DNA from: Hwanghaeella sp.
Lineage (GTDB): Bacteria > Pseudomonadota > Alphaproteobacteria > UBA8366 > Aestuariispiraceae
DNA length: 64,000 nt
Direction: 5' to 3'
Assembly (NCBI GenBank): GCA_028282025.1
Contig: JANQIT010000074.1
Location: 1-64,000, forward strand
Shown piece after piece: positions 10,771 through 55,365 of this stretch (the stretch's first letter is position 1; every line of letters begins with the position of its first letter). The position numbers and the translations under genes are program-made. The notes below the pieces were generated by a model. That model was not told the origin of the DNA. It was given only the letters and a program-made list of their open reading frames with translations, and did not search any database.

Positions 10771-11011
10771 CGCATCATCCCACCCCTAACACACGGTCGG
10801 CACACGCTTCTCAAGCCTGGATAAAGCTTTCGGCGGATTGTTCGCCGGGATCATCCGATGAAAGCTCACCTCTGGCGAATCGGATAGGCTTGCGTCTGGT
10901 AAATCAGGCGGACGGGAACAGTCCGAATGCGCTTGCCTCATTTTCCATGAAGGCTGGCGCAGAGGTCCACACCACGCCGTACCGAATCGACCACGGCAAG
11001 GCATCTCTCGC

Positions 11012-11428
11012 ATGGGCGAATTTTTCGACATTGCAGGCTATTTACGGTTCGTTATCGCCCTGGTGGCGGTGCTTGCCTTGATCCTCACCACCGCGCATGT
11101 GGCGAAGCGCTTCCTGCATGGCCGGGTTGCGCTTGCCAGGGCGGGCGCCGGGCGACGCCTGTCAGTCAGCGAGGTTTTGCCCCTGGACGCCCGCCGGCGC
11201 GTGGTGCTGCTGCGGCGGGACGGACAGGAACATCTGATATTGGTCGGCCCGGATGGCGACACTGTCATCGAGCGCGATATCGACGCCCCAGAGCGCAAGG
11301 CGGACAAAGACGAGACTGAGAAGAATGTGGCATCCGTGGAACGTCTCACTCAGACCACGGGCGGAACGCCTGACACGGAACGCCGATCAGGTCCCTTGAA
11401 GACATTGCTGCGGGCGGTTCAATCGTGA
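11012..11428 (+). CDS. fliO: Flagellar biosynthesis protein FliO
   Basis: 138 residues with one N-terminal membrane helix (about 9-29, LRFVIALVAVLALILTTAHV) followed by the FliO cytoplasmic core RRLSVSEVLPLDARRRVVLLRRDGQEHLILVGPDGDTVIE. FliO helps assemble the FliP ring of the export gate. The C-terminal 40 residues are charged and probably disordered. Its stop overlaps the GTG start of fliP (GTGA, 4 bp), which supports both calls. The 241 bp before it contain no gene and probably hold its promoter. Confidence 0.93.
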   Translation: MGEFFDIAGYLRFVIALVAVLALILTTAHVAKRFLHGRVALARAGAGRRLSVSEVLPLDARRRVVLLRRDGQEHLILVGPDGDTVIERDIDAPERKADKDETEKNVASVERLTQTTGGTPDTERRSGPLKTLLRAVQS

Positions 11429-34042: not shown

Positions 34043-34103
34043 ACCAGACTGCCCTAACCTAACGCGCTGCTACGGACACTGGCGTGGCCGCCGCCACCCG
34101 GTC

Positions 34104-36377: not shown

Positions 36378-36519
36378 TGTTCTTCCCCCTGTGATGAACC
36401 GCGCCCGCAATCGGATCTAGAAGTTAACGGAGTGTGCGGGGAAACGCCGAAAAACGAAAGGGTTGTCAGCAAGATAAATCCGCCGCTAACGCTAAAGAGT
36501 GAATACAGCGCGGAACCGG

Positions 36520-37893: not shown

Positions 37894-37973
37894 ACCGCCT
37901 TGTACCGGCCCACCTTGGCCCCCGGCAAGGAAAAGCAATCTTTCCGTCTGGGCCGTCCAGGCGGGACGGGTGA

Positions 37974-39992
37974 TTAGTACCGGTAGCGCAGCGTGCCTTG
38001 GACACGCCCGTCCATGCCCGCCCCGGCATCCGGATCGCGGGCTCGGAGCCCGTCCAGGATCAGGCTCATGTCCAGCCGGCCGATGTCGTCGCTGTAGCCC
38101 AGGCCCAGGCCCGCCTCCACCTGAGCCGCCGACATGCCGAAGGAGAGGCGCGGTGTGAAGGTGCCCACGATATCCTGCAAGGCCATCCCCTTCACGACAT
38201 TGCCGCGCAGGTTCCATTGTTCGTAATCGTCGCGCCCGACCAGGCTGGTCGCCTCCAGCGAGGCCGTCATGCCCAGGCTTCGCGACGTCCAAGTCGCCCC
38301 GCCGCCGACCTCCGCCGCCACCGGATCGTTGTTCGTCAGGTCCTGGAATTCGAACGTACCCTGCGCCGTCACGAAGGGCGTCAGCAGATTGTTGGGGTTA
38401 AGGGTCAGCGCATAGGCCGCCTCCGCCCCCGTGCGGACCAGACTGGTGTTGGATGTGACGAACTCGGTAAAGGCACCCTGGCTGTCCGTAAAGGAATCCA
38501 CCCGGCGGCGGGACCGCACATAGCCGACCGAACCCGCCACGGTGATTTTATCCAGACGATAGGTCCCCTTCGCCCCGACGCTGAGATAGAGCGTATGGGC
38601 GTTGGGGTTGGACTCCGCGACCGTGGTACTGCGGTTCTGGGACTGGTCGATGCGGCTATAGGTATAGCCGGCGCTGGCGTTCAGCACCAACCAGTCAAAC
38701 GGTGTGTAAACGAAGTACGGGGCCAACGTATAGCCGTCCTCGTCATACCGCCCGTCGTTAAAATCCGTATCCAGGGCGACCGAGGAATAACCCGCGCTGA
38801 CGCCGGCCAGCAGGTCGGTCCGGAACCAATGGTCGATCCCCCCCGACACAGTCAGGATATCGCCGTCGAACCGCTGGTCGTCGCCGGGCAGATTGCGTTC
38901 GTTGGTGAGGCTGGAATAGCCGCCGTATAGCCAGACGTTGGTATCGGTATCGGCTCGCTCCAAGCGCTGGGGCGGGCCCGGCTCCGGGCGGTCGGATTGG
39001 TTTTCCGTCTGGTTGAGTCGCCGGTCCGCGCCCAGGAACGTGTCCAGCGTGTCGCCCTTGGCGGAATCGAAATTCAGCTTGGGCAGCAGGAAGCGCGCCG
39101 CCTCCCGCGTCGTGTTCGCGCCCACCATGTTGCGGCGGGGGGCCTTCTCATCCTCCCGGAGAAAGGCCGAGAGTAGCCTCTCGGAGAACGGATCGTCCCG
39201 CGATACCGCCACCCTCGGCGCGGCGCTGGCCGGTTGCTCAGGCTCCCCAAAGTTCTCAGATCCCGATGGACCGCCGGGAGTCGGCTCAGGCACTCCAGCG
39301 CCGTCCCCTGCGCCTGCGCCGGCCCCTGCACCCACGACGCCGCCGCCGGTCAACAGGTCCACATGCCGCTGAATGTTCTGGGTCGTGAAGCGAGTCTGCG
39401 TCTTGGCTACCGTCGCCGTTAGGACCGGCGCGGCGGAGGAAGGCGTACCCGCGACCGGCGCGGCATCGATCTCCGTCAGGCTGGCGAAGGCGGCGGTGAC
39501 CGTCGCGGAACCGGTACCATCGGCGGTCGCGGTGAACCTGACCTGATTCAACTCGCCCGTGACCGAGTTGACGTTACCGAGGGTCACTGTGCCGCTAAAC
39601 GGGTTGCCCCCTGACGGGAACGCCTGACAGCTCGCCGTCGACGCCGACGTGCCCGGCATGTCGCAGGTTTCGAGAGCGGCAGCACTCGCACTTGTCCCGT
39701 CCCCGACAAAACCCAGAAGTTCGTCGGCATCGGATGAGAAGGTGATCACGTTCGCGGCATTCGAACCTGCGGCCAGGATTTGTCCTGAACCCAGAACCGA
39801 AACTGTACAGACCCTTGTATCCGGATTGAAAACCACAGCGATATTTAAGATTGCATCCGTCGTTGCCGGCAAGCCGGAACAGGCGATCTGCTGCGCAACG
39901 GCTGTTTTCGGTGTGAAAACGGTCCCCAAAAACGCAAGTGAAACTACAAAGAACGCAAAGACCGACGCAAAGATGCGCGTACCCCGTACCAT
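37974..39992 (-). CDS. Autotransporter with C-terminal beta-barrel
   Basis: Surface or secreted type V protein. ATG 39992 is preferred (672 residues). GTG 40013 is also in frame. The signal peptide ends near TAVAQQ. The passenger is short (about 30-330), with an Ala/Thr/Ser-rich beta part containing four Cys, then a Gly/Ala/Pro-rich linker (GAGAGAGAGDGAG). The C-terminal 310 residues form the barrel (WLYGGYSSLTNER through to the terminal LRYRY). The passenger resembles no enzyme I recognise. Its upstream region is very AT-rich, in contrast to the coding sequence. Confidence 0.85.
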   Translation of the reverse strand: MVRGTRIFASVFAFFVVSLAFLGTVFTPKTAVAQQIACSGLPATTDAILNIAVVFNPDTRVCTVSVLGSGQILAAGSNAANVITFSSDADELLGFVGDGTSASAAALETCDMPGTSASTASCQAFPSGGNPFSGTVTLGNVNSVTGELNQVRFTATADGTGSATVTAAFASLTEIDAAPVAGTPSSAAPVLTATVAKTQTRFTTQNIQRHVDLLTGGGVVGAGAGAGAGDGAGVPEPTPGGPSGSENFGEPEQPASAAPRVAVSRDDPFSERLLSAFLREDEKAPRRNMVGANTTREAARFLLPKLNFDSAKGDTLDTFLGADRRLNQTENQSDRPEPGPPQRLERADTDTNVWLYGGYSSLTNERNLPGDDQRFDGDILTVSGGIDHWFRTDLLAGVSAGYSSVALDTDFNDGRYDEDGYTLAPYFVYTPFDWLVLNASAGYTYSRIDQSQNRSTTVAESNPNAHTLYLSVGAKGTYRLDKITVAGSVGYVRSRRRVDSFTDSQGAFTEFVTSNTSLVRTGAEAAYALTLNPNNLLTPFVTAQGTFEFQDLTNNDPVAAEVGGGATWTSRSLGMTASLEATSLVGRDDYEQWNLRGNVVKGMALQDIVGTFTPRLSFGMSAAQVEAGLGLGYSDDIGRLDMSLILDGLRARDPDAGAGMDGRVQGTLRYRY

Positions 39993-40013
39993 CCTCAGAA
40001 ACCCTCTCACCAC

Positions 40014-40489: not shown

Positions 40490-40506
40490 TGGTGCGGTCG
40501 AGAAGA
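40490..40506. repeat. Left attachment site (17 bp)
   Basis: TGGTGCGGTCGAGAAGA, identical to the last 17 bp of tRNA-Leu at 55279-55295. After this core the two sequences diverge. No other part of a tRNA is found here, so this is the displaced copy at the distal end. Confidence 0.92.
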
Positions 40507-40568
40507 GACGGACGATGACTCGACACACAGCCCATAAGATACTGAATTTAATCAAATTATTCCACGAA

Positions 40569-40581
40569 ATCTATAACACAA
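40569..40581 (+). repeat. Putative integrase arm-type site, left end
   Basis: ATCTATAACACAA, identical to 55215-55227 at the other end of the element and partly inverted at 55232-55242. It starts 63 bp inside the left core. Arm-type sites of tyrosine integrases are short repeats of this sort near both ends. Confidence 0.6.
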
Positions 40582-40625: not shown

Positions 40626-40719
40626 GAAACCGAAACGCTCGAATCCCGCTATATGATCTTGAGTCTCTTAAAACAGCGAAAACTGAAACACCGAAGCCAT
40701 CTAAATAGAGGTAATATTG

Positions 40720-41679
40720 ATGGTCGCCGACCTCTCAGAATGCCCGATTTGTGGGTCCAAACTGACGACTCCGTCATCGACAATCGGGATGCTCGATGCG
40801 TATCGCTACGACTGTCCAAACTGCGGGCCTTACGAGCTTACAGGAACCGCAGATCATCTGATAGTACCATCGTTGGCCGGCGCACCAGCAAAACGGCCTA
40901 TTGTCTCACACCATGTTCGGAGGTGGTCTACCGGGTCGGAAGTGCCAAGGTTGGATTGGGATCAGTGCAAAAATTTGCTCGAACGCGGGGAACTGCCGAC
41001 AGTTCATGAGCAGTCCGAGAACCTTATTCGATTCATTGGTGATTCAACGACTGACCCAGGGAAGGGCCACACGTTTAAAGCTTCGAGTGCTCTTGCAACC
41101 GTTGGAGCGCTATCGCCAGAGTCAATTGCGTTTTGCTTGAGCGGCCTTGCAGAAGAAGACTTAGTCAAAGTCAGATCAAGGACACTCGATGGCGAGTCTA
41201 CAGTAGTTCTAACGTTTCACGGCTGGGGTCGATATGAAGAACTTCGCCGTGGTAAAACGTCGGGCACAAAGGCATTCATGGCGATGGCCTTTGGCGATGG
41301 AGTTCTAAATAGCCTGCTCAATGACCATTTCAGGTCGGCGGTGGCGCAAACTGGGTTCCATCTCACAAGGCTTGATGACGCCCCGAAGGCAGGGAACATC
41401 GACAATCGAATGCTGGCAGAAATCCGCTCATCACGCTTTCTAATCGCCGACCTTACCCACGATAATTCGGGGGCATACTGGGAGGCTGGCTTTGCGGAGG
41501 GACTGGGCAAACCCGTTATCTACACCTGCTCAAATGAAGTTTTCAGCGATAAAGGGACGCATTTTGACACGAACCACCATCAAACTGTTCTGTGGGATGC
41601 CGCTAGCCCTGAAGCTGCGTGCGACTTGCTTAAGGCCACGATCCGGAACACGTTCCCAGATGCCAAACAGGAGGACTAA
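40720..41679 (+). CDS. Zinc-ribbon protein with nucleoside 2-deoxyribosyltransferase-like domain
   Basis: 319 residues from ATG 40720, with GAGG about 8 bases upstream. An N-terminal zinc ribbon has CPIC (Cys8, Cys11) and CPNC (Cys32, Cys35). A middle helical part follows (about 90-175). The C-terminal domain (about 185-310) has the deoxyribosyltransferase/TIR-like fold pattern: AFMAMAFGDG, SRFLIADLTHDNSGAYWEAG and AEGLGKPVIYTCS. Glu255 matches the catalytic Glu position of these glycosyl-bond-cleaving enzymes. Related domains cleave NAD or nucleotides in antiphage defence. That role here is inference, supported by the mobile setting. Confidence 0.75.
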   Translation: MVADLSECPICGSKLTTPSSTIGMLDAYRYDCPNCGPYELTGTADHLIVPSLAGAPAKRPIVSHHVRRWSTGSEVPRLDWDQCKNLLERGELPTVHEQSENLIRFIGDSTTDPGKGHTFKASSALATVGALSPESIAFCLSGLAEEDLVKVRSRTLDGESTVVLTFHGWGRYEELRRGKTSGTKAFMAMAFGDGVLNSLLNDHFRSAVAQTGFHLTRLDDAPKAGNIDNRMLAEIRSSRFLIADLTHDNSGAYWEAGFAEGLGKPVIYTCSNEVFSDKGTHFDTNHHQTVLWDAASPEAACDLLKATIRNTFPDAKQED

Positions 41680-41724: not shown

Positions 41725-41889
41725 CTACGCCTTATCCGCTAGGCGGACACGACGCTTTATAGGACGTCTCTCAATGCGCCCGCCCCCGGCAGTGCGATAG
41801 ACAATCCGCCCTGAGTCGTATTCCTCGTCGTCGCGTTTACCACCGCCGCCTTGGAGCGCCTCAAACCTCTTCTGGTCAAAACCAGCCAC
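41725..41889 (-). CDS. 54-residue basic protein downstream of terminase
   Basis: Small gene found by reading past the terminase stop. GTG 41889 follows GGAGG (the last codons of the terminase gene) at six bases, an excellent ribosome binding site. The product, beginning VAGFDQKRFEALQGGGGK, has an acidic centre and a strongly basic C-terminus (RIERRPIKRRVRL). It is likely translationally coupled to the terminase. The function is unknown. Small basic proteins near terminases may bind DNA, but nothing proves that here. Confidence 0.65.
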   Translation of the reverse strand: MAGFDQKRFEALQGGGGKRDDEEYDSGRIVYRTAGGGRIERRPIKRRVRLADKA

Positions 41890-41891
41890 AC

Positions 41892-44186
41892 CTAACCTCC
41901 TAATTTCTCTGCAATTCGATCTTGGAAACTGTCAAACGTCATCCCGTGTCGAACGTGATGACCACCTTGTTCGTATTGTGCGAGTTGTGCCTTTAACTGC
42001 TCAATGAGCAGCGCAAGGTCCGACGAAGGAAGCCCCATAGCGACTTCATCGGCATGGGTCTCTATCACCGCGTTCAAGCGCTCCCTTAGCTCCTCAGCGT
42101 TCTCATCTTGAGCCGCCCAGGCGTCCAACATGTCGTCTGGAACCGCGCACATACGGATTGGGAGCTTTCGAAGCCGCTCAGCGCTGAAGCGAGCACTTGC
42201 AATGTAGGCTGCTGGATCTGCGCACAGGATGTCCTTGAACGCGGCTACGGCGTAGCTGAGAGCGTCTACAATGTCGTCGTGCTTGAGCCGCCGCCCATCG
42301 TAATTGATGCCAGTAAGTTGGTTTACAAATTCGATACCGCTATCTGGTGACGTTAGCACCGCCTTGCAAACAAACACTCGTTTCGAGGCGAAGGCCGGAA
42401 CCAATGTCCCAATGATACGCGCACCTTTCTTTTGCTTCCCGGTTGTGACCGGCTCCACATTGAGTGGATAGCCCCTAGCCGCCAGTTCACGCGACAACTG
42501 GCTCGCAAACAGACCATCACGCTCTTGTTCCACATAAACACAGTTCGCCCTGTGCAAAGCGATCAAACGTGCGCACTCCTGGATAGATGACTGAACGGTT
42601 TCGGTTCTGACCCCAACAGCCTGTCTAACGATGACAGCGCCCCCGCCGGTCGATGATGCTATTGCCAGCCCAATCGCGTCACCTTTACCAACAAGCCCAC
42701 CCGCAGGGTCAACAGCCGCTACTGTCAAAGTGTAGGGACTCGAGTCACTTGAAACCTCAGACACGCCCCTCCAGTTGTCGTCTTTGGCGGCATTTCCCTT
42801 AGAAAGCCCAGAGATCACTCCACCCCCACCTCTCAGCACAATCGGTGCTGTCGGTAACAGCGGATCGAGATCGACCACACTTAGTGACGATATCCTGATG
42901 GGCCGCTCATCGGTCGCGGCTTGGGACAGATCAATGCGCCAGTGCAGGGCGAAGAGCCGCGCGGACATATTTCGCTTTCTTCCAGCAATATCGTCTGCGC
43001 TAAACCGATCCGGCCAACGGCTATGGAACACCTCCTGGCCGTTAAGAACGTCGGACTGGAAAAGACATGCTCTATGCACGTCCCACTCCCCCGACTCCAC
43101 AAGGCGTCCATACAGAGACATTTGGGACTGGGGTGTGCCCAAAACGATGATGCGGCTTTGCGGTCCAGGAACGATGACATTGTGAGCCTCAGAAATTTGG
43201 TCCGACAGCTTGTCGATTGCCTCAGCGCTGTCATGCTTTGGGGTCTCCACATCGTCCAGGATGATTAGGCGTGCACGCTTACCTGTGATCTGTCCGGTGA
43301 TACCGATTGATCGGAAACTCACAGACATCCCAAGTTGCCCGGTCGCGGGCCCAACGACGAATTGGGACATGTTGTCTGGGCTGTCGTCTGCAGGTGTCAG
43401 CTCACCAAGAACGGGGGAACGCTCAATGAGATCTCGAACCATACGGAGCATATCGCGCGCATGGCTTTCACCTTGTGACACTACGAGAATCGTCTCGTTC
43501 TCTGGGTCCCGCCACAACCGCCAGAGTGCGTAGAAGGCTGTGAAGGTGGACTTTGCAGAGCCCCTTGAGGCCAAGACGAGAATGTTGCGGCACTCGGACA
43601 TTAGCCCACTCACGATGTCATCATGGATCGGCCCAGGATCACACCAGCCGGTAACCAAGGGTCTCACCACCGCTCGGACGAAAACCCAGAAAGCTATCGT
43701 CTCATCACTCATTCGGCCAAAGCCAGCGGGATCAGTCTTCAGCCGCGTTGCGGCTTTGATTGCCGTCAGTAGTTCGTCCTGACGCACTAGATCTGGCCGC
43801 TTGGAGCCAATCAGCTCTGTTAGCTCGGCCACTGAACCCGACACCTCTTCAATGAAGCGCTCTATGTTCGATTCCGGTTTTGCTGTATACGTAGATACCG
43901 AGGCAGGGACTCCGACACTTGTCGACCACTTTTTGTTTTCACGTCCGATAGCCTCGCCGTTTGGAGCGGTCGCTGATTTTCTTCCCTGACACTGGCGACA
44001 CGTCGTGTGCCACCCAGTCTCCGAAGACTTCAACAGCGCAAAATTTTCGTGCCCCAAAGATTTAGTCGATCCGCAAGAAACGCACTTGAAGGGCTGACCT
44101 AGGTGAGCTTCGGCAACTGGCCCCGGAACGAGGGCTCTGGACTTTCTCTGTGTGCCTTTGAATTGGCCTTTTGTTTCTTTCGTCAT
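41892..44186 (-). CDS. T7-like terminase large subunit with N-terminal zinc-binding extension
   Basis: Packaging motor ATPase/nuclease of podovirus type, 764 residues. The ATPase domain has a Walker A-like ASRGSAKSTFTAFYALW (about 215) and Walker B LIILDDVETPKHD (about 315). The C-terminal RNase H-like nuclease has VAAVDPAGGLVGKGDA, VEQERDGLF and LKHDDIVDALSYAV with its acidic residues. Ahead of these is an unusual extension with CVSC and CRQC pairs (about 36-70) resembling a zinc ribbon or an HNH remnant. Typical T7-like subunits of about 580 residues lack it. The frame is intact. A phage gp14-like gene precedes it. Confidence 0.88.
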   Translation of the reverse strand: MTKETKGQFKGTQRKSRALVPGPVAEAHLGQPFKCVSCGSTKSLGHENFALLKSSETGWHTTCRQCQGRKSATAPNGEAIGRENKKWSTSVGVPASVSTYTAKPESNIERFIEEVSGSVAELTELIGSKRPDLVRQDELLTAIKAATRLKTDPAGFGRMSDETIAFWVFVRAVVRPLVTGWCDPGPIHDDIVSGLMSECRNILVLASRGSAKSTFTAFYALWRLWRDPENETILVVSQGESHARDMLRMVRDLIERSPVLGELTPADDSPDNMSQFVVGPATGQLGMSVSFRSIGITGQITGKRARLIILDDVETPKHDSAEAIDKLSDQISEAHNVIVPGPQSRIIVLGTPQSQMSLYGRLVESGEWDVHRACLFQSDVLNGQEVFHSRWPDRFSADDIAGRKRNMSARLFALHWRIDLSQAATDERPIRISSLSVVDLDPLLPTAPIVLRGGGGVISGLSKGNAAKDDNWRGVSEVSSDSSPYTLTVAAVDPAGGLVGKGDAIGLAIASSTGGGAVIVRQAVGVRTETVQSSIQECARLIALHRANCVYVEQERDGLFASQLSRELAARGYPLNVEPVTTGKQKKGARIIGTLVPAFASKRVFVCKAVLTSPDSGIEFVNQLTGINYDGRRLKHDDIVDALSYAVAAFKDILCADPAAYIASARFSAERLRKLPIRMCAVPDDMLDAWAAQDENAEELRERLNAVIETHADEVAMGLPSSDLALLIEQLKAQLAQYEQGGHHVRHGMTFDSFQDRIAEKLGG

Positions 44187-44246
44187 TTGTCTCCAAAATG
44201 AGAGAAGGGAGCCGCAGCCCCCTCATTCTCAACGTCCTGATCTTCC

Positions 44247-44786
44247 TCAGGTCTCTCTTTCTTTTTTGCTTATGTCGCGTAGGTCCTTGCCCAACTGTAA
44301 GCCGGAACCGATGGCGTTGAACAATGCCCCCCGGCTCGAGGCTCTGGACTGTTCCCGCAGCCCTTGGATTTGGGCCAAGGTTCCCAGCTGGGACGACTTC
44401 GACTGGGCTTGTATGCGTTGAACTTCGTTCTCCGCGTTCCGCTCAATCCGACTAATGTCTATTCCTTCATTGGCACCAACTTCGACCACGAACGGGGTGA
44501 GGTTAGCGATTCCCATCTCACCAGCAGCGGCCTGGATGGTGGCGAGCTCCTGGTTTGCTAAACGTTCGCGATCTGAGATTTGTTCGGTCTCAATTTCACG
44601 AACCTCTCGTTGGAGCCTTTGGTTCTCTTGAACAATGAAGGCATGGTTTTGGTTTGCAATAGCCGCCGACCGTTCTGCGGCCTTGGTCTGCTGACGTGCT
44701 TGGGCAAAGCCGTTCGCAGTGCTAGCCAATGCTGAACCAGCGGCCAGGACTTTTCCAAGTGTCAGAGCCTCAAGTCCTGTGCACAT
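44247..44786 (-). CDS. T7 gp14-like internal virion protein
   Basis: 179 residues. The N-terminal MCTGLEALTLGKVLAAGSALAS (Met-Cys start, then a hydrophobic helix), the long Gln/Glu/Arg-rich coiled coil and the patch TIQAAAGEMGIANLTPF followed by DISRIERNAENEV strongly recall gp14 of T7-like phages, an ejected internal core protein that forms part of the DNA-entry channel. The similarity is a judgement of pattern rather than an alignment. It lies between the 297-residue gene and the terminase. Confidence 0.65.
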   Translation of the reverse strand: MCTGLEALTLGKVLAAGSALASTANGFAQARQQTKAAERSAAIANQNHAFIVQENQRLQREVREIETEQISDRERLANQELATIQAAAGEMGIANLTPFVVEVGANEGIDISRIERNAENEVQRIQAQSKSSQLGTLAQIQGLREQSRASSRGALFNAIGSGLQLGKDLRDISKKERET

Positions 44787-44792
44787 ATAAAG

Positions 44793-45686
44793 TTACCTCC
44801 GAATTACTTGGGCATCACGATAGCGGGACGGGTTATTCCGCTTGAGTGTGTCCCATGCAGATTTTTCAACTTCGATCTTACGACCCTCAACCATAACCAA
44901 GACAGTGTGCGAGGAGCACTGGCCAGTTTCTCGACGGCCTCCTTCAAGCCCGGGCAGAGTTGCTGTTGAAGTCACATACTTTGCGGCCCAGCTCTCAAAC
45001 GTGCTCATCTGGCCTAGCCGGACCACCTCAATTCCAACGCTGTAGACTTTGTCGGAACCGTACTGCTGGTGAGCCCAGTGCCAGAAACCATCGAAGTCAG
45101 TCAGCCCAGCAGATTGCTGAAGGTGTTGGTTTATGGACTGCTCCACGTCGTGTACCACTGCTTGGGCCTGAGCGACGAACTCCGACTTGCCGATGCCGTG
45201 GGCATCTGCCAATTCGTCCACTCCTGACGGCAGTCGAGTCCGATCAAGTAGAAACTCAGACATAGCCTGTGTACCTGCTCCTTTGCCAAGTTCGTTGTCG
45301 ATAAAGGGGAGCCAGTTGCCCAACGCATCTGCTGTTTCAGAGGATACTTCTAGATCACCGCCCTGGGCTTCTTGGTTCGTGTCTGCTGTGTCGGCAGAAA
45401 AAGTCTCTTCGAGCAGCGTGTCCTCATAGAGGCCCTCAGTGTTCTTGCGTATGAACCCGCGATTGGCGGCAGCGTCGACGGTCATCTCAATGCCTTTGAC
45501 CGTAACAAGGTCGTCCGGCTGTGGAGCCCTACCACCCAAAGAGCTGCCATTTCGGCCAACTGCGGTAGACATAATCGGACCGCCGTTTTGAATGGAAGTG
45601 TGGCAGGGATCGAGCAAGTGACGTTCACCTCCCGACTCGTATCTGGAGACCCGGACTTCCGGCTCCGACGTTTCAAGCTCTGACAT
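44793..45686 (-). CDS. Unknown phage-associated protein
   Basis: 297 residues from ATG 45686, with AGGAGAAAAT directly upstream. A longer frame to 45746 would include this ribosome binding site. The N-terminal half is acidic and low in hydrophobics, and the C-terminal half (about 140-297) is more globular with aromatic patches such as DFDGFWHWAHQQYGSDKVYS. It ends only 6 bp before the gp14-like gene. Acidity and position would allow a scaffold-like role, but I do not recognise the family. Confidence 0.7.
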   Translation of the reverse strand: MSELETSEPEVRVSRYESGGERHLLDPCHTSIQNGGPIMSTAVGRNGSSLGGRAPQPDDLVTVKGIEMTVDAAANRGFIRKNTEGLYEDTLLEETFSADTADTNQEAQGGDLEVSSETADALGNWLPFIDNELGKGAGTQAMSEFLLDRTRLPSGVDELADAHGIGKSEFVAQAQAVVHDVEQSINQHLQQSAGLTDFDGFWHWAHQQYGSDKVYSVGIEVVRLGQMSTFESWAAKYVTSTATLPGLEGGRRETGQCSSHTVLVMVEGRKIEVEKSAWDTLKRNNPSRYRDAQVIRR

Positions 45687-45775
45687 ATTTTCTCCTGTGT
45701 TGTCAGCGTTCGATGTAAAAAAAAGCGGCCCAATTAGGACCGCCAAATCTAGTTGTCTGTATTTTGATAGGCCGG

Positions 45776-45976
45776 CTACGCTGCTCCAATAAGAGCATTC
45801 AGGTTTCCGACCACGGTTGCCTCCCGCAGCGGGCAGTGTGGACTCTGAACCTCCCAGGATTGCTCCCCAGACATTACTTCTGAGGATGGGCCCAACTTCT
45901 TCATGGTGATCTCTCCTGCACCATCAATTCGGACTACATATGTGTCCGAGGCGTGGTGGTGGATGAATTTAGGCAT
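45776..45976 (-). CDS. Small unknown phage-region protein
   Basis: 66 residues from ATG 45976. AAAAGGAAATTCG precedes it, while the open frame to 46045 has no such site. The sequence starts MPKFIHHHASDTYVVRIDG and shows beta-like alternation. No family is recognised. It heads the run of four genes leading to the terminase. Confidence 0.6.
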   Translation of the reverse strand: MPKFIHHHASDTYVVRIDGAGEITMKKLGPSSEVMSGEQSWEVQSPHCPLREATVVGNLNALIGAA

Positions 45977-46313: not shown

Positions 46314-48095
46314 CTAGGCCGCCTTTGAGAAGGCTTTCGCTTGGCCGCATTTCACGACCGACACACCAAGGTCATACATACTATCGATGACCTTCTCCTT
46401 CTTCGTCAGCTTCCTGAAGTTCTCTTTGGATACACCGAGCCGACCTCTAGCTACTGGAAATGTCAGCGTTTGTCCGGGACTAAGGTCGGCCAAAGTGCGA
46501 ACCAAACGGTCCGCTTGGGTAGTACCTTCACCAGCCATACGCGTACCAATTGGAACCCAAGTCTGAACTTTAGCGCCTGGAAACCATTCAGGAAGTCTGT
46601 GTCTTATTCCTGTATTCGGCGCAGCCATAACCCAAGCCTCACACGCACCACAATCTCCACCATTCGGCAATCTAACAGAGGCTCTGCACAGTGCTTGCAA
46701 GATGTGGTGTCCGTGCTCACCGAGACGGACTTCAGCGCGTTCTTCGGAGCTTACCTCTTCGTCGGAACTCAGCTCCGCAGAAGCCCGTTTCATAGATTCA
46801 TAGTTGTATTCCGGATAGAACAGTGTTCCGGCCAGAATGACATTGGGAACGTCCAAGTGTTCGTTGGTTGCTGTGTGGCGGCCCCAGTTGAGAAATGAGA
46901 CATTACTCGGTTGGTTCAAGAGTCTCTTGAGTTCCTTCGGGACATCATTGATACCAATGTTGGAACGACCGATCTTGTTCTCCGCCTTGTGGTGCACAAC
47001 GAGCCATTTTTCATTCGGTTTAGTGTTTATTGTGTTCGCTATGGCTTGAACGTATTCCGCAAACCTGTCCGGCTTACGCCATGCGGTCTTTGAACCAGAA
47101 ACTGGCCAAAAATTCACAGTCAGATTTCTGTACATCTTCCGAGCAGAGGGCAGCTGACACGCGACACCTAGCCGTTCTTGATCTGCGTACTGTTGACGAA
47201 TCCTACCCGAGGCATCCGTAACCACGACCGGGTATATGTCCTTAGGCAGAGTTGGTCTGTAGTGCAGAGCAGCTGTGTCACTACCGTGCCGGCAAACACG
47301 GGTCTGCTTGCCGGAAATCGCGGCAAGATCTAACACCATTTCTCTACCGAGATCATATCCAAGGGCGCAATCATGATAGTCTTCCACATGTGTGTGGTGG
47401 AGAAGGCGGACCCAATCCGGGAAATCAAACTCCGTACGGTCTTTCCACCCCTTGAGCGCCGTTAGGGCCTCAGCTAAAGCCTCTGCCGCATCAGACTCTC
47501 CGAACTTGGAAAGTAGTCCGATGGCCTCCCCAAGGGCCTTCTTGTTAGCGTTGATTGGGCGGGTCGTAGAGAACGTTTCATCCCATATGCGAAGCGACCG
47601 ACAATCGCCCTCGAAGTAGAGTTCATGTGCCTCGCGTAAGGGCCGACTTTTGGTCAACCTTCGGACCCGTTCGTGGGTGGTCAACAGGATCGGCTTGGAG
47701 TCTAAAGCGTCAGATTTTTCCTCGGACGTCCAAAAACCGACCCTAGTGCCACACACACGCATACCTACAATTTGGTCGCGTACGTCGCGCGCTTGGTCAA
47801 TCCGCTCCACACAGACGAGAGCCCCCGGGTGCGTCGAATTCGCGTGGGCTTCGTCCAGCGCCGCCAAGAAACTGACAATGGCGGTCGTTTTGCCTATACC
47901 TGGGTCCAGCGTGGCCAAATAGGCTAGAGGCTTTGCCCGCCCATGCGCAGCGTCGTCAAAGGCCGTCAGGAGCGCTCCAAGTGCAGTCCACTGATCCTCT
48001 GAGAGGGTCGCCCCTCTTGTGTCCATAGACTGTTTGAGACGCCAATGCGCGGCACTGGCGACTTCGGGTAACTGTACCGCCAATTCTTTCTCCAA
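46314..48095 (-). CDS. P-loop ATPase, helicase-like
   Basis: 593 residues. Walker A is in LATLDPGIGKTTAIVSF (about 60-76) and a Walker B-like DE occurs in SLRIWDETFSTTRP, followed by LLTTHERVR-type helicase motif spacing. The C-terminal half (about 330-480) resembles the second RecA fold with EKWLVVHHKAENKIG. This would suit a superfamily 2 helicase or replicative ATPase of the element. The start is unclear: TTG 48095 has no good ribosome binding site, and a stop lies 13 codons upstream. No primase domain is visible. Confidence 0.7.
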   Translation of the reverse strand: MEKELAVQLPEVASAAHWRLKQSMDTRGATLSEDQWTALGALLTAFDDAAHGRAKPLAYLATLDPGIGKTTAIVSFLAALDEAHANSTHPGALVCVERIDQARDVRDQIVGMRVCGTRVGFWTSEEKSDALDSKPILLTTHERVRRLTKSRPLREAHELYFEGDCRSLRIWDETFSTTRPINANKKALGEAIGLLSKFGESDAAEALAEALTALKGWKDRTEFDFPDWVRLLHHTHVEDYHDCALGYDLGREMVLDLAAISGKQTRVCRHGSDTAALHYRPTLPKDIYPVVVTDASGRIRQQYADQERLGVACQLPSARKMYRNLTVNFWPVSGSKTAWRKPDRFAEYVQAIANTINTKPNEKWLVVHHKAENKIGRSNIGINDVPKELKRLLNQPSNVSFLNWGRHTATNEHLDVPNVILAGTLFYPEYNYESMKRASAELSSDEEVSSEERAEVRLGEHGHHILQALCRASVRLPNGGDCGACEAWVMAAPNTGIRHRLPEWFPGAKVQTWVPIGTRMAGEGTTQADRLVRTLADLSPGQTLTFPVARGRLGVSKENFRKLTKKEKVIDSMYDLGVSVVKCGQAKAFSKAA

Positions 48096-48550: not shown

Positions 48551-48844
48551 CTAGTTTTGCGGACCGAGATTGTCTGGGCGAGACGAACGCCTCAGGTTCG
48601 CGACCACTGGGCCCGCAACGACCCAAGGCCTCAAAGGATTCAAAACCTCGTGGCTTATGAAAACCGCCACGCCTTCTAACCCGGTCAGATATCCTTCAAT
48701 GTACTGGCATTCCGCTTCGATGACAGGCGCGCCCCAAGCCACGCCCGGAAACTCTCTCTCAAGCGATGCTCTTATGCCAGCCGTAGCTTGGATCAGAGCA
48801 TGGGCTGACTTTTCGCTTGGGAACTGGATAACGTTGTCGGACAT
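48551..48844 (-). CDS. Small unknown protein of the element
   Basis: 97 residues from ATG 48844, with AGGAGACCAAAA upstream. It starts MSDNVIQFPSEKSAHALI, and the VIQFP pattern is common at the N-terminus of small phage proteins. The middle part is amphipathic helix. No family is assigned. It is read in the same direction as the resolvase and helicase-like genes. Confidence 0.6.
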   Translation of the reverse strand: MSDNVIQFPSEKSAHALIQATAGIRASLEREFPGVAWGAPVIEAECQYIEGYLTGLEGVAVFISHEVLNPLRPWVVAGPVVANLRRSSRPDNLGPQN

Positions 48845-48913
48845 TTTTGGTCTCCTAGTCGGCACCTAAACCACTTGGCATCGCTGGACTTCAATTACAG
48901 TAGTTGGTTCTTG

Positions 48914-49585
48914 CTATTTTTCGGCAGCCTCCAAAACGCGCTTCACTTGTTGCGGGTGCCACACCCCACCACGGGCAGACGGAATGCCGCGTGCCGTCAG
49001 CTCCGATGCGATGGCCCGAAGAGACGACGCCCCACCCTCCCGAATGTGGTTGATCACATGCATTAGGTCTGCCGACCGCTCCTGCGCTATTTGGCGGACT
49101 TTAGCTGAACCCAAGGCCCTCCCCTTCGCGGCCGCCTCGGCAGACAGATTCGCGGGATTGCCCAGAACCCTACCCCGCCGCTTGGCGGCTTTAAGTGCGG
49201 CCTTGGTGCGTTCCGAGATGGCTTTGCGTTCTTGCTGAGCGACGACAGCCATAATCCCAACAGTCATCTCGTTGGCGTCCGGCATGTCTGCGGCAACGAA
49301 GCGCGTCTTGCTGTTCTGCAGCGTCAATAGGAATGCTGCATCACGAGACAGCCGGTCCAGCTTTGCTACCACTAACGTCGCATTGTAGAGACGACAAACA
49401 GAGAACGCCTCGGTCAACCTCGGACGATCATTCTTTCCACCGCTCTCAACCTCGGTGAACTCTGCCGCCATAGACCAATTCCTGCCTCTGACGAGGTCGG
49501 TGACCGCAGACTTCTGGGCGTCTAACCCAAGCCCCGACCTACCCTGCTGGTCCGTCGATACGCGATAGTATGCAACGTATTTCAT
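48914..49585 (-). CDS. Serine recombinase (resolvase/invertase type)
   Basis: 223 residues from ATG 49585 (GGGTTGGGACAC upstream). The catalytic Ser lies in MKYVAYYRVSTDQQGRSGLG, and VAKLDRLSRDAAFLLTL and AVVAQQERKAISERTKAALKAAKRRG are the conserved catalytic-domain motifs. A C-terminal HTH region (about 180-220, SLRAIASELTARGIPSARGGVWHPQQV) follows. It could resolve multimers or invert a segment. No obvious inverted target pair was seen nearby. Confidence 0.92.
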   Translation of the reverse strand: MKYVAYYRVSTDQQGRSGLGLDAQKSAVTDLVRGRNWSMAAEFTEVESGGKNDRPRLTEAFSVCRLYNATLVVAKLDRLSRDAAFLLTLQNSKTRFVAADMPDANEMTVGIMAVVAQQERKAISERTKAALKAAKRRGRVLGNPANLSAEAAAKGRALGSAKVRQIAQERSADLMHVINHIREGGASSLRAIASELTARGIPSARGGVWHPQQVKRVLEAAEK

Positions 49586-49930
49586 GTGTCCCAACCCTCT
49601 GAACGTCCATTTACTGCCTTGTGACAATCATATTGAGTCGGGTGAGTCCGCTTGCAAGGGAAATTTGTGTGCGATGGACCGCCGCTTTGGGCTCATAATC
49701 TGGCAGACACCAGGGTCGATTCTAGAGGCCACTGATGCGCGGCAAGCCCTGCGCCCTTGCACACTAGGAAGATCTCCACGAGTGAACCCAGCGACTCCAG
49801 AATGGCCTCCTGTGGCCCCCTATTCGACCAGCATTGGGGCGGGGGGAGGGGTCCGGGGGAAAATCAGAACACGCGCTGGGGAAACTGACATCGGGCACAA
49901 GTAGATTGGCACCCGGGGTGGCCAATGAGG
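49586..49930. other. Gene-free stretch between resolvase and unknown gene
   Basis: 345 bp. Plus-strand frames here lack ribosome binding sites and plausible products. It may hold the resolvase promoter and the recombination (res) site, which usually lies beside its gene, but I did not identify one. Confidence 0.4.
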
Positions 49931-50977
49931 TCACTTCCCGGGACCCAAACGCTCGACTATGGAAACAACAGATTGGTCGAGTGGTGGCAAGCCAAGGGAC
50001 AGGCCCAGCGAATAAAGATGGGCCACAGTCAAGATTCCCAGACCACCTTGGACCACTTTTCCGTAAGTGCTATTCGCCACCGCTCCCAGAAAGGCTTTGA
50101 TGTTGGCTCTCGCCGCCCTGGCGCTTTCCTCGAACTGCTTGTCAGAGGACTCGACAGAAAGCAGATCATTCAATCGCCGCAGCTCGTCACGTACTTCTCG
50201 CAACAGTGCGGTCAACCTTTCGGCGTCCTCAACGTCCCCCCAAAGCGGGTCCGCGTTTGTTGCTCGGTCATGCAGCCGCCCATCGTCATAGTCATCGATC
50301 AACCTAACCAAAGCTGACACTAGCAGTTTGTAATGGGCCGGGTTTGCTCTAATCCTTGCAGCGACCGACTGGTCTCTGTCCCGCCACGTGACTTTGGCTT
50401 CTACCTGCTCTTTGGAAAAGGGTGCGATTTCCCCTACTTCGCCAACGACCGGTTCCTCTTCAATTACGTTGAGAACTGAGTCGTCTTCTATCGACCCGTC
50501 TAGGAGTCCCGCACCTTCAACTAGTTTAGAAAGAGCGGACGAATGATCACCGTTGTCATCTACTTGGAAACCTTGGCCCCTCATGAATTGGACGGCTTGG
50601 TCCAAGTACTCATCGGAAGGATACTCAATCCAGATTGCGTCTGTTGACAAGTCAGTTGCCCCCGAGCCGCTTCCCCAACTCGACAGGCTTGCTGACTCAT
50701 TGTCAGCCCTCGGCACTTCAACCCGAACCGGGTAACTGCTCCCAACACAGGACTTATCGTCTACAACGGCAACTACTGATACAGTGGCCCGACTTCGCCA
50801 GGGGTTTAACGGAAGCTCCTTTTCAAGGGCCCATGACGCAGCTTTGTCAAAAGCTATATGTGCAATCTGCCTCGCGACATATTCGTTTGGAGCAGTCACG
50901 CGACAGCGCCCTTTCCGGATACTGCGCTCCAAGTCAGGATGGTTCAGGTCAACAGGCTCAAGAGTGTACTTCGGCAA
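49931..50977 (-). CDS. Unknown protein with C-terminal membrane helix
   Basis: 348 residues. N-terminal about 90 residues look globular (KYTLEPVDLNHPDLERSIRKG), followed by an acidic low-complexity centre (about 90-195), a charged helical stretch (about 200-300, RLTALLREVRDELRRLNDLL) and a hydrophobic segment near the C-terminus (about 310-335, VVQGGLGILTVAHLYSLGLSLGL). No family is recognised. It is divergent from the Mrr-like nuclease gene, with 206 bp between starts, and may be part of the same defence locus. Confidence 0.6.
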   Translation of the reverse strand: MPKYTLEPVDLNHPDLERSIRKGRCRVTAPNEYVARQIAHIAFDKAASWALEKELPLNPWRSRATVSVVAVVDDKSCVGSSYPVRVEVPRADNESASLSSWGSGSGATDLSTDAIWIEYPSDEYLDQAVQFMRGQGFQVDDNGDHSSALSKLVEGAGLLDGSIEDDSVLNVIEEEPVVGEVGEIAPFSKEQVEAKVTWRDRDQSVAARIRANPAHYKLLVSALVRLIDDYDDGRLHDRATNADPLWGDVEDAERLTALLREVRDELRRLNDLLSVESSDKQFEESARAARANIKAFLGAVANSTYGKVVQGGLGILTVAHLYSLGLSLGLPPLDQSVVSIVERLGPGK

Positions 50978-51183: not shown

Positions 51184-52377
51184 TTGAAATGTGAGACAAA
51201 ATTGAAAATCGAAGATGTAACTCTGTTGGCTGGACTCGGACTGATTGGGGCGGTTTTTATTCTGTTCTCCAAATACAAGACTGCAAGGAAAGAGTTAGCG
51301 AGCACTTCACATCGAGCACTGATTGTGTCCCGCCGATTGGATGAGCTTGGTCCTCAGGCAAACAAGCTTGAGCGTAGGATTTACGAACTTGAGAAGGCGA
51401 TCCAAGCAAAAGACCTTATGTATGAGCGCCTATCTGCGGAAGATGGCGACCCGCTTCTAGGCATTGCCTCACTGGTCGCGGACCACGCAACTCGCCAATT
51501 TGAATACTCTGCAAGATATCTTGAGACCAAACAGCGTCCTGCACGCAAGGAAGCTGAGAGAATACGCACACTCAAGGAAGAGACCAGGGAGCATATCAAG
51601 AGGCTCAAACTGATGGAGTACAAGTACGAGTATTTGCTGGGGCTCTTTCCCGACCTCGCACTATACGCCGACGATGTTGAATCGCTGCGCAGTCTCTCCG
51701 AGGCGATAAGTGTAACCGAAGCCGAAGCTGAAGCCGACCGAACACGAAACTACCTTTCGCCTGAGGAATACCAGAAACTCCCTGAACGAAAGCGCAATCA
51801 GCTCGCTCTTGATCGCTACATCCGAGGTAAAAAATCGACGTGGCAGATTGGTCGTGACTATGAGCTCTTCGTTGGCCACCTCTACAAACAGGAAGGCTGG
51901 GAGGTACAGTACACGGGAATTGAGCACCGGCTCATGGACATGGGCCGTGATCTTGTCGCGAAGAATGGTGCGGAAATACATGTGGTACAGTGCAAATACT
52001 GGTCCCGCGATAAAGTAATCCACGAAAAGCATATATGCCAATTGTATGGTACAGCGGTCCAATACCAACTCGCGAATGGTGTCGAGGCCGTGACGCCTGT
52101 CTTTTACACCAACATCGAACTATCAAGAACAGCTCAAGAGTTCGCCGAACACCTGGGCGTCCTCGTCTTTCGAGAGGAACTAGGCGATTTCCCACGCATC
52201 AAATGCAACATCAATCGCGGAGCCGACGGAGAACGTGTCAAAATCTATCACCTTCCAATGGACCAGCAATACGACAGTACAAAGATTGACAAACCCGGCG
52301 AGTTCTTCGCGTTCAAGGTCAAAGACGCAGAGCGATCAGGCTTCCGACGCGCGCTCCGATGGCGAGGCTCCAAATGA
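51184..52377 (+). CDS. Membrane-anchored Mrr-like restriction endonuclease
   Basis: 397 residues from TTG 51184. TTG 51202 is an alternative. An N-terminal membrane helix (about 10-28, VTLLAGLGLIGAVFILFS), a long coiled coil (about 35-150) and a restriction-endonuclease-like domain (about 235-350) follow in order. In the last, GRDYELFVGHLYKQEGWEV, then MGRDLVAKNG and VVQCKYW (Gln269-Lys271) give the D...QxK active site of the Mrr family. Such proteins attack foreign, often modified DNA. Anchoring to the membrane with a coiled-coil sensor is unusual and suggests attack at the point of DNA entry, which is inference. The membrane protein gene follows 64 bp later. Confidence 0.82.
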   Translation: MKCETKLKIEDVTLLAGLGLIGAVFILFSKYKTARKELASTSHRALIVSRRLDELGPQANKLERRIYELEKAIQAKDLMYERLSAEDGDPLLGIASLVADHATRQFEYSARYLETKQRPARKEAERIRTLKEETREHIKRLKLMEYKYEYLLGLFPDLALYADDVESLRSLSEAISVTEAEAEADRTRNYLSPEEYQKLPERKRNQLALDRYIRGKKSTWQIGRDYELFVGHLYKQEGWEVQYTGIEHRLMDMGRDLVAKNGAEIHVVQCKYWSRDKVIHEKHICQLYGTAVQYQLANGVEAVTPVFYTNIELSRTAQEFAEHLGVLVFREELGDFPRIKCNINRGADGERVKIYHLPMDQQYDSTKIDKPGEFFAFKVKDAERSGFRRALRWRGSK

Positions 52378-52441: not shown

Positions 52442-53884
52442 ATGGACGTAGCTGTCCTCACATTGAACAGTCGGGAAATCTCGATTGTAGTGTGGACTAT
52501 TCTGTATCTGGTATTGTCGGTATCAGTCCCTCTCTTCCGACCAGTAGCCATCTCTTTAGGTCAATTCCTCTGGTCCGCTCGCAGCTACATCCTTCATAGG
52601 CGTGTCCGGAGAGCGATCTACGCCGCTGCGCTGTACAACCTTGCAGTGGTCTGGCTTCTGCACAACGTCGGTCTGTGGTTCCTCTCGGACATCAAAGCGA
52701 CCACATTGTGGTTCCTAACGGTCGTGTCCGTCGCAATGTTCCGCGTTCAGAAGCGGCTTGGCGACGTACCCGATATCCGCGAAAGCGTGAAGGAGCTTGC
52801 CGCGATCACAGTGGTGCTCGAATTCATCGTAGAGTTTCATACCTTGCCGCTATGGGCCGAAGTGATAGCAACACCTGTCATCCTAGGCATAGTGCTCTTC
52901 TACACTCTGCTCAGAAACGATGCCGACTTGAAAACCGCTAAGGGCGTAGCTCGCTGGGTACTCATTGGTTACGGATTAGTCGTCCTGGCTAATGGCGTGT
53001 ATCATGTATGGGAAACCCCCGGTCTCTTCTTCCAAATCTCCACGCTCAGGGATTTCCTCTTGATCCCAGTCTTGAGCGCCTTGTTTCTTCCTTTCCACTT
53101 CCTTATGTCGACTTTGGTCTCGTTCGAGATTGCCATCAGGGATCTACAAGGACTTATCCCCAATCTTTCGCTTCGCCGGTATACGGCCTTCAAGGCGTTG
53201 AGGGCGTTCTTTTGGCGGACCGAGTTACTAAAGTGGTGGATGATCAGATTTCGTAGGAATCCACCAGAGGACCGAAACCAAGTAGACGTCTCCATTGCGA
53301 AGGTACTCGCGCTGGCCAACGCTTCCGCCGATCCTCCAGCAGTCGATCCTAGTCTAGGCTGGTCTCCCTATTGGGCGGGGAAGATATTCGTCACGGAAGG
53401 TCTTCAGACAGGCTGGTACGATGAACTCGCGGGGCGTGAACATTGGTTCTCACACTCAGAATATCTAAAGTTCGGTCCAGGCATCGACGTGAACCACATT
53501 ACCTACCACGTCTATGGCAATGAGGAAGTGGCCCGTTGCTTGAAGCTTTTCTTGCACATCAACGAACCCCACGACGAGTCCGAGGCCCTAGCGGTGTTCG
53601 AAGCCCTAGCCCACAAGCTATGTCATCAAGTGACCTCCCAAGAGCTACCAGACGCTATCGACTTCAAGGCGCTGTTCCGAGACACCGTGAAAGCGCAGAT
53701 AGGCGACTATGAGGTAGTACTCAACCACTTTTCCTCCGAGTGGGACGGCCGCAAGGACTACGAGATGCGGTTCTCGGTCCGCAAACCTCCATCCACCGAA
53801 GAGGAGATGATTTGGCGATGTTCGCACGGAGCCGGAACCTCAAACGACGAACTCATCAAATCGCTCAACGGGTTTATCGATTGA
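52442..53884 (+). CDS. Polytopic membrane protein of unknown function next to nuclease
   Basis: 480 residues. About six hydrophobic segments lie in the first 245 residues (for example IVVWTILYLVLSVSVPLF, AAALYNLAVVWLLHNVGLWF and FLLIPVLSALFLPFHFLM). The C-terminal 230 residues are soluble, with HWFSHSEYLKFGPGIDVNHI and DYEVVLNHFSSEWDGRKDYEM. No catalytic motif is visible. Its position 64 bp after the Mrr-like nuclease suggests one operon. It could be the effector or anchor of a two-gene defence system, but nothing in the sequence proves it. Confidence 0.7.
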   Translation: MDVAVLTLNSREISIVVWTILYLVLSVSVPLFRPVAISLGQFLWSARSYILHRRVRRAIYAAALYNLAVVWLLHNVGLWFLSDIKATTLWFLTVVSVAMFRVQKRLGDVPDIRESVKELAAITVVLEFIVEFHTLPLWAEVIATPVILGIVLFYTLLRNDADLKTAKGVARWVLIGYGLVVLANGVYHVWETPGLFFQISTLRDFLLIPVLSALFLPFHFLMSTLVSFEIAIRDLQGLIPNLSLRRYTAFKALRAFFWRTELLKWWMIRFRRNPPEDRNQVDVSIAKVLALANASADPPAVDPSLGWSPYWAGKIFVTEGLQTGWYDELAGREHWFSHSEYLKFGPGIDVNHITYHVYGNEEVARCLKLFLHINEPHDESEALAVFEALAHKLCHQVTSQELPDAIDFKALFRDTVKAQIGDYEVVLNHFSSEWDGRKDYEMRFSVRKPPSTEEEMIWRCSHGAGTSNDELIKSLNGFID

Positions 53885-53911: not shown

Positions 53912-55201
53912 CTAGGAAACCCTCCTCAGCACATCCTTTGAATACACCTCAAAGCCCATCTTAATCCGCTTCTTTTCCGGTCCGCTCGAATACACGTCAG
54001 TCAGCAGCTTCCCGGTCTTATGGCCGATCATGCGTTCTTTTAGCGTCGGCTCTATGCCCTCTAAGTTCTCTAGAACTGTTCCGGCCCATCGGCGAATGCT
54101 GTGTAGGTCCAGGCCCTGCTCCTTGGCGTTCGGTAGGGCCTCGGCAAGGGTCGCCCTCATGCGCTTCGATAGAGAATGCCCAAGCTTGTGGTCCTGACCA
54201 CCGGGCCTTAGTTCCTCGAAGAGTTGGTCCTCAGGTTGTTTCCCTCCCGTACGTCGATTGAGCACCTCTTGTGCCCGCTCAGAAGGGAAGAACACGACGC
54301 GGTTCCCCGCCTGTGTCTTCGCGTCCCGGATATGAACCTCACCATTTGGTTGGACGTCTTTCACCCGCAGCTCGCAAATCTCGTTTAGGCGGCAGCCGCT
54401 CTCTATTAGCAACAACCCGACGTCGTACTGCTTGGGGCTCTGGTTCCAACGGCGCTCAAGAGCCTTGTAGAAGATCGTCAACTCCTTGTCGGTAAAGGCC
54501 CGCTTCTTCTTTGCCGCCTTCGGGAGTTCGCGAGCCAAGTCAGCGAAAGGCGAGATCCCCTGGCAATACTCTCGCTGGCGTGCCCACTTCCAAAGCAGGT
54601 TCATAGCACCAATGTACCGCCCGAGGGTCTTGGGAGAACGTCCTGATTTTTCCAGGTGATCGCTGAGCCACTTTGAGGCCGTCCTTGGCCGGACCTTGTT
54701 CATCATTAGGTCGCCCATAGCTTCTATGAACAAGCCAACAGCATGGCGACGGCCGTCTATGGTTCCCGGCGTAACCTTCCCTTGAAGAGACGCCAACCAC
54801 TGATCAGCCACCACCGATATGGGTACGCCCTTGCCGGTGGCGATATCAAAGTATCGCTGCGCTTCTGCCTCATGCCCTTTGTCGGCTATGTCCTGTGCAC
54901 GGTCGTCTATGATGCCCTCATAGATGTCCCTTAGGTCCTCCCTGGGCTCGTCCAGCAGCACGCCAGCGGCCTCTTGGGCCTCCTCGGTGCCGCCCAGCTT
55001 TGAGGCCACTAGTTGCTCAACCTCCCGAATGATCTCATCCAGCTTGGCGTGCTTCCTGCGCCGGGCCTGATCAAGGTCTCGGGTCTTCAGCGTTCTGGAT
55101 ATGGAGTCTTTGCCGACGATCTTCCGCCATTTGGTCGGAACTACGTACCGGACATACCAAGTATGCCCCTGCCGGTAGATGTTCTGGGTCATATAAGACA
55201 T
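53912..55201 (-). CDS. Tyrosine integrase of the element
   Basis: 429 residues. The N-terminal part (YRQGHTWYVRYVVPTKWRKI) is the DUF6538-type arm-binding segment, followed by a core-binding domain (about 130-230) and a catalytic domain with Arg in ESGCRLNEICELRV, His-x-x-Arg in LDLHSIRRWAGT, the second His in MIGHKTGKLL and the nucleophilic Tyr in LTDVYSSG. ATG 55201 is used, and a second ATG three codons later is possible. It lies 77 bp from the tRNA-Leu 3' end and is divergent from no other gene, as in many tRNA-targeting elements. Confidence 0.95.
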   Translation of the reverse strand: MSYMTQNIYRQGHTWYVRYVVPTKWRKIVGKDSISRTLKTRDLDQARRRKHAKLDEIIREVEQLVASKLGGTEEAQEAAGVLLDEPREDLRDIYEGIIDDRAQDIADKGHEAEAQRYFDIATGKGVPISVVADQWLASLQGKVTPGTIDGRRHAVGLFIEAMGDLMMNKVRPRTASKWLSDHLEKSGRSPKTLGRYIGAMNLLWKWARQREYCQGISPFADLARELPKAAKKKRAFTDKELTIFYKALERRWNQSPKQYDVGLLLIESGCRLNEICELRVKDVQPNGEVHIRDAKTQAGNRVVFFPSERAQEVLNRRTGGKQPEDQLFEELRPGGQDHKLGHSLSKRMRATLAEALPNAKEQGLDLHSIRRWAGTVLENLEGIEPTLKERMIGHKTGKLLTDVYSSGPEKKRIKMGFEVYSKDVLRRVS

Positions 55202-55214: not shown

Positions 55215-55242
55215 ATCTATAACACAATCAGGTGTTATAGAT
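55215..55242. repeat. Putative integrase arm-type sites, right end
   Basis: ATCTATAACACAA at 55215-55227 and its inverted copy GTGTTATAGAT at 55232-55242 form a palindrome with 11 bp arms and a 6 bp spacer. The direct copy is identical to 40569-40581 at the left end. It also overlaps the integrase promoter region, so the integrase may repress itself. Confidence 0.6.
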
Positions 55243-55278
55243 TTCGCAAGACTTTGATTTTACTGAATAAATCAGAAA

Positions 55279-55295
55279 TGGTGCGGTCGAGAAGA
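55279..55295. repeat. Right attachment site inside tRNA-Leu 3' end (17 bp)
   Basis: TGGTGCGGTCGAGAAGA: CCA end, acceptor stem and part of the T-arm of the tRNA, identical to 40490-40506. Confidence 0.92.
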
Positions 55296-55365
55296 CTCGA
55301 ACTTCCACTCCGGTTAAGGAACAGCGACCTCAACGCTGCGCGTCTACCAATTCCGCCACGACCGC
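55279..55365 (-). tRNA. tRNA-Leu (anticodon GAG)
   Basis: 87 nt including an encoded CCA end. The acceptor stem GCGGTCG/CGACCGC, D-loop AATTGGTAGACGC, anticodon stem CAGCG/CGCTG with loop TTGAGGT (anticodon GAG), a long variable arm and T-loop GTTCGAGTC are all present. It is the integration target. The element restores its 3' end. Confidence 0.97.

Follow-up and report, generated by a model that had tools for sequence, protein, structure and literature searches.

The element described here, a 14.8-kb island in an alphaproteobacterium of the genus Hwanghaeella, probably belongs to a family of integrative elements in Alphaproteobacteria that live as satellites of T7-like podoviruses, a family that we presume to be mobile. 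We put the probability of this reading at roughly two in three. The island lies in the 64,000-nucleotide stretch of DNA that we analysed as a whole (the window), and its features are collected in Table 1. As the first-pass annotation had described, it carries a T7-like terminase (TerL; phrog_38, 8.4e-75) and a gp14-like internal virion protein (PF24072, 1.1e-12) next to small phage-like genes. That annotation had left the choice between a satellite and a relic. The satellite is the better supported of the two and the relic is disfavoured, because the same small gene subset recurs in open, diverged copies, the islands are of narrow size, their genes are under purifying selection, and the corresponding site of a congener is free of the island.

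Boundaries and gene content of the island

The integrase gene adjoins the tRNA-Leu gene that serves as the integration site, and the G+C content falls from about 60-65% in the flanks to 47-58% between the repeats. A 15-nt inverted pair just inside the island ends is a possible arm site for the integrase. In a congener (G004), the left flank (window positions 32784-39896) and the tRNA gene are collinear and only about 1.5 kb apart, versus 15.4 kb in the window, which indicates that the island is missing from that site. An autotransporter-type gene (37974-40013) lies directly to the left of the island and is kept at the congener's island-free site. An Rfam scan gave tRNA as its only match.

Table 1. 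Features of the island and its integration site (window positions)
Feature	Position	Strand	Remarks
Island	between 17-nt repeats 40490-40506 / 55279-55295		repeats 14,789 bp apart (14.8 kb)
attL	40490..40506	n/a	TGGTGCGGTCGAGAAGA, 17-nt duplicate of tRNA-Leu 3' end
Inverted-pair arms, 15 nt	40565..40579 + 55232..55246		just inside island ends
Cargo: zinc-ribbon + nucleoside 2-deoxyribosyltransferase/TIR-like	40717..41679	+	defence-type
54-aa product	41725..41889	-	2-bp gap, downstream of TerL; no PHROG or Pfam family
T7-type large terminase TerL, 764 aa	41892..44186	-	all catalytic motifs present; N-terminal extension rich in Cys
gp14 internal virion (ejection pore) protein	44247..44786	-	PF24072 1.1e-12; phrog_805
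o317, scaffold-like (candidate)	44793..45686	-	297 aa from ATG, 317 from TTG at 45746; sister islands have it conserved, upstream of gp13/gp14
66-aa product	45776..45976	-	no PHROG or Pfam family
SF2 helicase, DinG/XPD fold (modelled)	46314..48095	-	conserved in about 40 related islands
104-aa product	48551..48865	-	no assigned family
Serine resolvase/invertase	48914..49627	-	
348-aa product	49931..50977	-	no assigned family
Cargo: Mrr_cat restriction-type nuclease	51184..52377	+	
Cargo: 480-aa protein	52442..53884	+	hydrophobic, membrane-like N-terminal half
Tyrosine integrase, DUF6538 domain	53912..55201	-	
attR	55279..55295	n/a	within tRNA gene
tRNA-Leu (gag)	55279..55365	-	integration site

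Five of these genes form a same-strand run, o66-o317-gp14-TerL-o54. TerL retains Walker A (ASRGSAKS), Walker B (LIILDDVE), motif III (GTPQS) and the acidic residues of the nuclease, and it scores above the cut-off of the Pfam Terminase-T7_RNaseH-like profile. In a tree its branch, next to the T7-type TerLs, is very long, at 3.7 changes per column, and yet all ATPase and nuclease motifs are kept. As the sole search key, with the patterns applied, it brought up no relative among viral or genomic contigs, and TerL searches elsewhere returned distant phage or prophage terminases only. The idea that such an element supplies its own packaging motor holds for the window copy and fails for every other island found, none of which has TerL.

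The rest of the element holds the recombinases, helicase-like ATPase and defence-type genes that had been recognized at first pass, namely the DUF6538 integrase, the resolvase, the ATPase, the Mrr_cat nuclease and the TIR-like protein, a homologue of which is present in a Geomonas helicase island (L094). Judged from its structure model (26-row alignment, mean pLDDT 85), the ATPase is an SF2 helicase of the DinG/XPD fold. The best matches of the model were DinG and XPD structures, with E values of 2e-11 to 4e-10; a comparison with PDB sequences gave nothing significant, and the placement comes from the fold search. No phage record searched contained a homologue of this helicase, and a scan of 84,980 species gave no cyanobacterial match.

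PHROG and Pfam profile scans found no portal, capsid, tail, gp15, gp16 or fibre gene inside the element, in agreement with the earlier claim that capsid, portal and tail are lacking; nor does it hold the gene set of temperate Autographiviridae (portal, capsid, tail tube, gp15, gp16 and RNA polymerase). Two general traits of a satellite were found: the element is integrative, with att sites and an integrase that it encodes itself, and in it, as in its sister islands, a complete virion gene set is absent.

Profile searches with the 54-, 66- and 297-residue products, for which a comparison with podoviral scaffold, portal and capsid families had been suggested, gave no PHROG or Pfam family for any of them; the 297-residue product (o317), in a profile with its relatives, weakly matched T7-type scaffolds. 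Six o317 members are 15-21% identical to the window protein and have in common with it their length class (about 310 aa) and their place just upstream of gp13/gp14. The o317 profile matches T7 gp9-type scaffolds over T7 scaffold residues 150-230, with a P value of 1.1e-4 or 4.5e-4 (probability of 56% or 33%), depending on the scaffold set. Twelve other control profiles gave no match (P >0.1), and the score was directed at scaffolds, not at capsid or portal. None of 300 column shuffles reached it (35.5 versus at most 23.1), and it falls to 24.6 when the window member is left out. The resemblance, weak but specific and leaning on the window member, is a lead for o317 as a putative T7 gp9-like scaffold. 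A tblastn search of phages with o317 found none, and its structure model is too poor to bear on this reading. An o317-first search of 385 genomes returned one further island, in G228, and one apparently false match. The G228 island (C13:55975-63793, L203) is about 8 kb long, splits a comM/yifB-like gene and holds genes for a large serine recombinase, a resolvase, the helicase, an HNH-type protein and o317; gp14 is not detectable in it.

Related islands in other Alphaproteobacteria

A look for the same gene set in other genomes had been suggested, and related capsid-less islands with gp14 are present in at least nine other alphaproteobacterial genomes, along with two partial copies. The window island is therefore unlikely to be a one-off relic. 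A PF24072 (gp14) search of 337 genomes of the class returned both full T7-like prophages and gp14 genes without capsid genes; such gp14-keyed searches guarantee gp14 in whatever they return. Two islands (L073 and L076) were found via the helicase, a search that is blind to virion genes, and they have o317 and then gp14, in the window's order. Some sister islands have gp13, a DUF6538 integrase is usual, and the resolvase, the DinG/XPD-like helicase and an upstream o317 are often present. The cultured strain Aestuariispira insulae CECT 8488 (G001) carries gp13 and gp14 in a 13.9-kb island (L033, on contig C12, NZ_QRDW01000012) with 32-nt repeats at a tRNA-Ser gene, a DUF6538 integrase, an NgoMIV-type restriction-modification system and a putAbiC gene. 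In G321, gp14 is accompanied by the resolvase and the integrase. Searching the taxonomic order to which G321 and L076 belong gave further islands, with the genes arranged int-res-helicase-o317-gp13-gp14 in G449 and int-res-helicase-o317-gp14 in G457; the same search also gave the islands of G493, G490 and G446, and G458 and G440 have partial or damaged copies.

Portal, capsid, tail tube, gp15, gp16 and fibre profiles gave no match in the sister islands, although these custom HMMs readily detect such genes where the same bacteria carry a full prophage. In viral contigs we found no gp14-bearing island, and a search of them for the helicases of gp14 islands returned none; one gp14-less relative was found there.

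A search with the window ATPase gave 30 loci, nearly all alphaproteobacterial and many of them with DUF6538 integrases and tRNA repeats. Most helicase islands are without gp14, and no other virion genes were found in 36 helicase loci. The gp14 carriers are a subset of a wider family of helicase islands. Their distribution over the helicase tree takes at least three changes to explain, which means that gp14 was gained or lost several times.

Several observations concern this wider family. Helicase islands without gp14 lie at tRNA genes in L070 (10101-22870, on the Ruegeria sp. TM1040 megaplasmid), L066, L069, L079 and L085; they have DUF6538 integrases and restriction-modification or other cargo and are 4-12.8 kb long. 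A small Cys/His-rich, zinc-finger-like protein is encoded beside the helicase in gp14 islands (L136:12253-12873, L137:3903-4805, L134:6258-7055 and L073:12173-12889); it is missing from the window, where TerL has the Cys-rich N-terminal extension. One Ruegeria contig carries two inverted helicase copies about 7.6 kb apart (L081:309-2225 on the minus strand and 9836-11752 on the plus strand). Contig ends often fall no more than about 1 kb from the helicase gene (L074, L080, L083, L084, L086 and L098), and in Tranquillimonas rosea the same stretch is found at two contig ends. These contig ends suggest that the sequence near the helicase is repeated or multicopy in those loci.

Size, selection and alternative readings

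Seven islands are bounded by att sites, and they measure 14,789 (window), 13,867, 11,484, 14,525, 13,520, 14,757 and 14,274 bp; helicase islands without gp14 are more variable, at 4.0-12.8 kb. Among phages, RHEph01-like Autographiviridae have the closest gp14, and their genomes measure 40.5-45.7 kb. A gp14 island thus has about one third of the length of a T7-like alphaproteobacterial phage (40-46 kb), a correlation with a helper that is itself presumed. P4 and its helper P2, and likewise SaPI and 80alpha, stand at a one-third size ratio. One third of the helper size is described as typical for satellites (PMC10803314). In pairs of sister islands, the divergence of gp14, gp13, o317 and the helicase is highest at third and lowest at second codon positions; for gp14 of L136 and L138 the values at the three positions are 0.35/0.26/0.56. 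The island genes are open and, as this codon-position divergence shows, under purifying selection. The aligned island copies of gp14 are all open and have the initial Met-Cys in common with phage gp14. Broken frames or relaxed codon pressure in relatives, which had been named as marks of decay, are mostly absent, with a stop codon in gp14 of the G440 copy only and third-position divergence highest.

These data also bear on other explanations. If the island were what is left of a temperate T7-like phage that was mostly lost, terminase and gp14 would be chance survivors in or beside an unrelated island. Such prophages are common in these bacteria, the window has only two certain virion genes, and the stop codon of G440 would fit decay; against this, diverged islands of narrow size share one and the same small subset, the genes are under purifying selection, the TerL motifs and the att sites are intact, and not a fragment of portal, capsid, tail, gp15 or gp16 is left over. 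We consider this explanation unlikely. Elsewhere in the genome of the window there is a prophage region of T7 type in which genes for portal, capsid and tail tube are present (G000:C271:22662-39914, L169). It may be interrupted, as portal and capsid are separated by 11 kb that include a transposase-like gene. Its presence is in line with the satellite reading but is no evidence of a specific pairing with the island, because such prophages are common in a related clade. T7-type portals were found in 10 of 14 island carriers versus 44 of 76 in one clade at large, which does not show an enrichment.

It would also be improbable, in our estimate, that the island is a defence island moving by other means, in which gp14, o317 and TerL act as dominant-negative or decoy parts and keep T7-like phages from assembling or entering properly. 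Such interference is favoured by the presence of restriction, Abi- and TIR-like genes in the same islands, by the fact that most helicase islands have defence genes and no virion gene, and by the G228 island, which has o317 without gp14. A decoy, however, could dispense with the catalytic motifs, every one of which is present in TerL, and the narrow size of about one third of a phage genome is seen in the gp14-bearing islands only. That several products have no family leaves room for a small phage that is complete, with its capsid and portal genes hidden among them. We rejected this possibility, which is very unlikely, as portal, capsid, tail tube, gp15 and gp16 are unmatched in the element and the sister islands, o317 scores against scaffolds, and the other large genes are the helicase, the recombinases and cargo.

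A probable satellite of T7-like phages and its relation to known families

For a satellite, the life cycle could run as follows. On infection by, or induction of, an RHEph01-like phage of the T7 type, the island would excise, and helicase and resolvase would support its replication and resolve multimers. o317 and gp14, with gp13 where present, would join the capsid, portal and gp15/gp16 of the helper to give particles with room for about a third of a helper genome, and the island would be packaged by its own TerL (window copy) or by the terminase of the helper. T7 gp14 leaves the virion first and makes a pore in the outer membrane (PMC8954989); the island's gp14 would form this pore at delivery, after which the island would integrate at a tRNA gene in the recipient. 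It is conceivable, although we would not count on it, that the family in this way redirects T7-type assembly from inside the shell, using its own scaffold (o317) and gp14/gp13 to obtain small particles of helper capsid protein that take about 14 kb and deliver it through an outer-membrane pore specific to the satellite, and that the window copy has acquired a dedicated TerL whose added Cys-rich domain could select satellite DNA.

P4-like elements, PICIs (SaPI) and PLEs are likewise integrative and equipped with a replication gene, defence-type cargo and an incomplete virion set, and their size of about one third of the helper resembles that of the island relative to its candidate helper type. 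Their helpers and genes are unrelated, and the island has no Sid/Psu, CpmAB or pri-rep, carrying instead T7-type gp14/gp13, a scaffold-like gene and, in the window copy, TerL. We rejected membership of the P4-like or PICI families because Pfam and PHROG scans found no psu, sid, alpha primase, alpA or pri-rep. cfPICIs have some virion and packaging genes of their own, as does the island, whose packaging genes are podoviral (T7-type); membership of that group was rejected because the island lacks its own major capsid and portal genes. Tycheposons and VEIMEs are integrated at tRNA genes and have a tyrosine recombinase, a helicase, cargo and, in some, packaging genes. This comparison is by description only. 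They were described from marine bacteria; the helicase family of the island has no cyanobacterial match in the species scan, and to our knowledge ejection genes are not among their features. RHEph01-like Autographiviridae (RHEph01, RHEph21, Pasto and TRX32-1, the last recorded as induced from a lysogen) have the closest gp14 to L136-type islands and the same gp13-gp14 order, but they are 40-46 kb in size, have full virion genes and have no helicase of the island family.

In open-access papers we found nothing relevant on satellites that carry genes of T7-like phages, ejection genes or internal virion genes, and the papers that we read do not describe T7-type ejection genes for P4-like elements, PICIs, cfPICIs, PLEs, PICMIs and tycheposons/VEIMEs. 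The island is probably an unrecognised kind of phage satellite, outside the P4-like, PICI, cfPICI and tycheposon families, the tycheposons being judged by description only. With a named cultured carrier, A. insulae CECT 8488, and T7-like phages of Rhizobiales in hand, the system can be tested. If our reading is true, it would mean parasitism via the internal core and the injection step of the virion, and the T7-like phages of Alphaproteobacteria would have a resident parasite.
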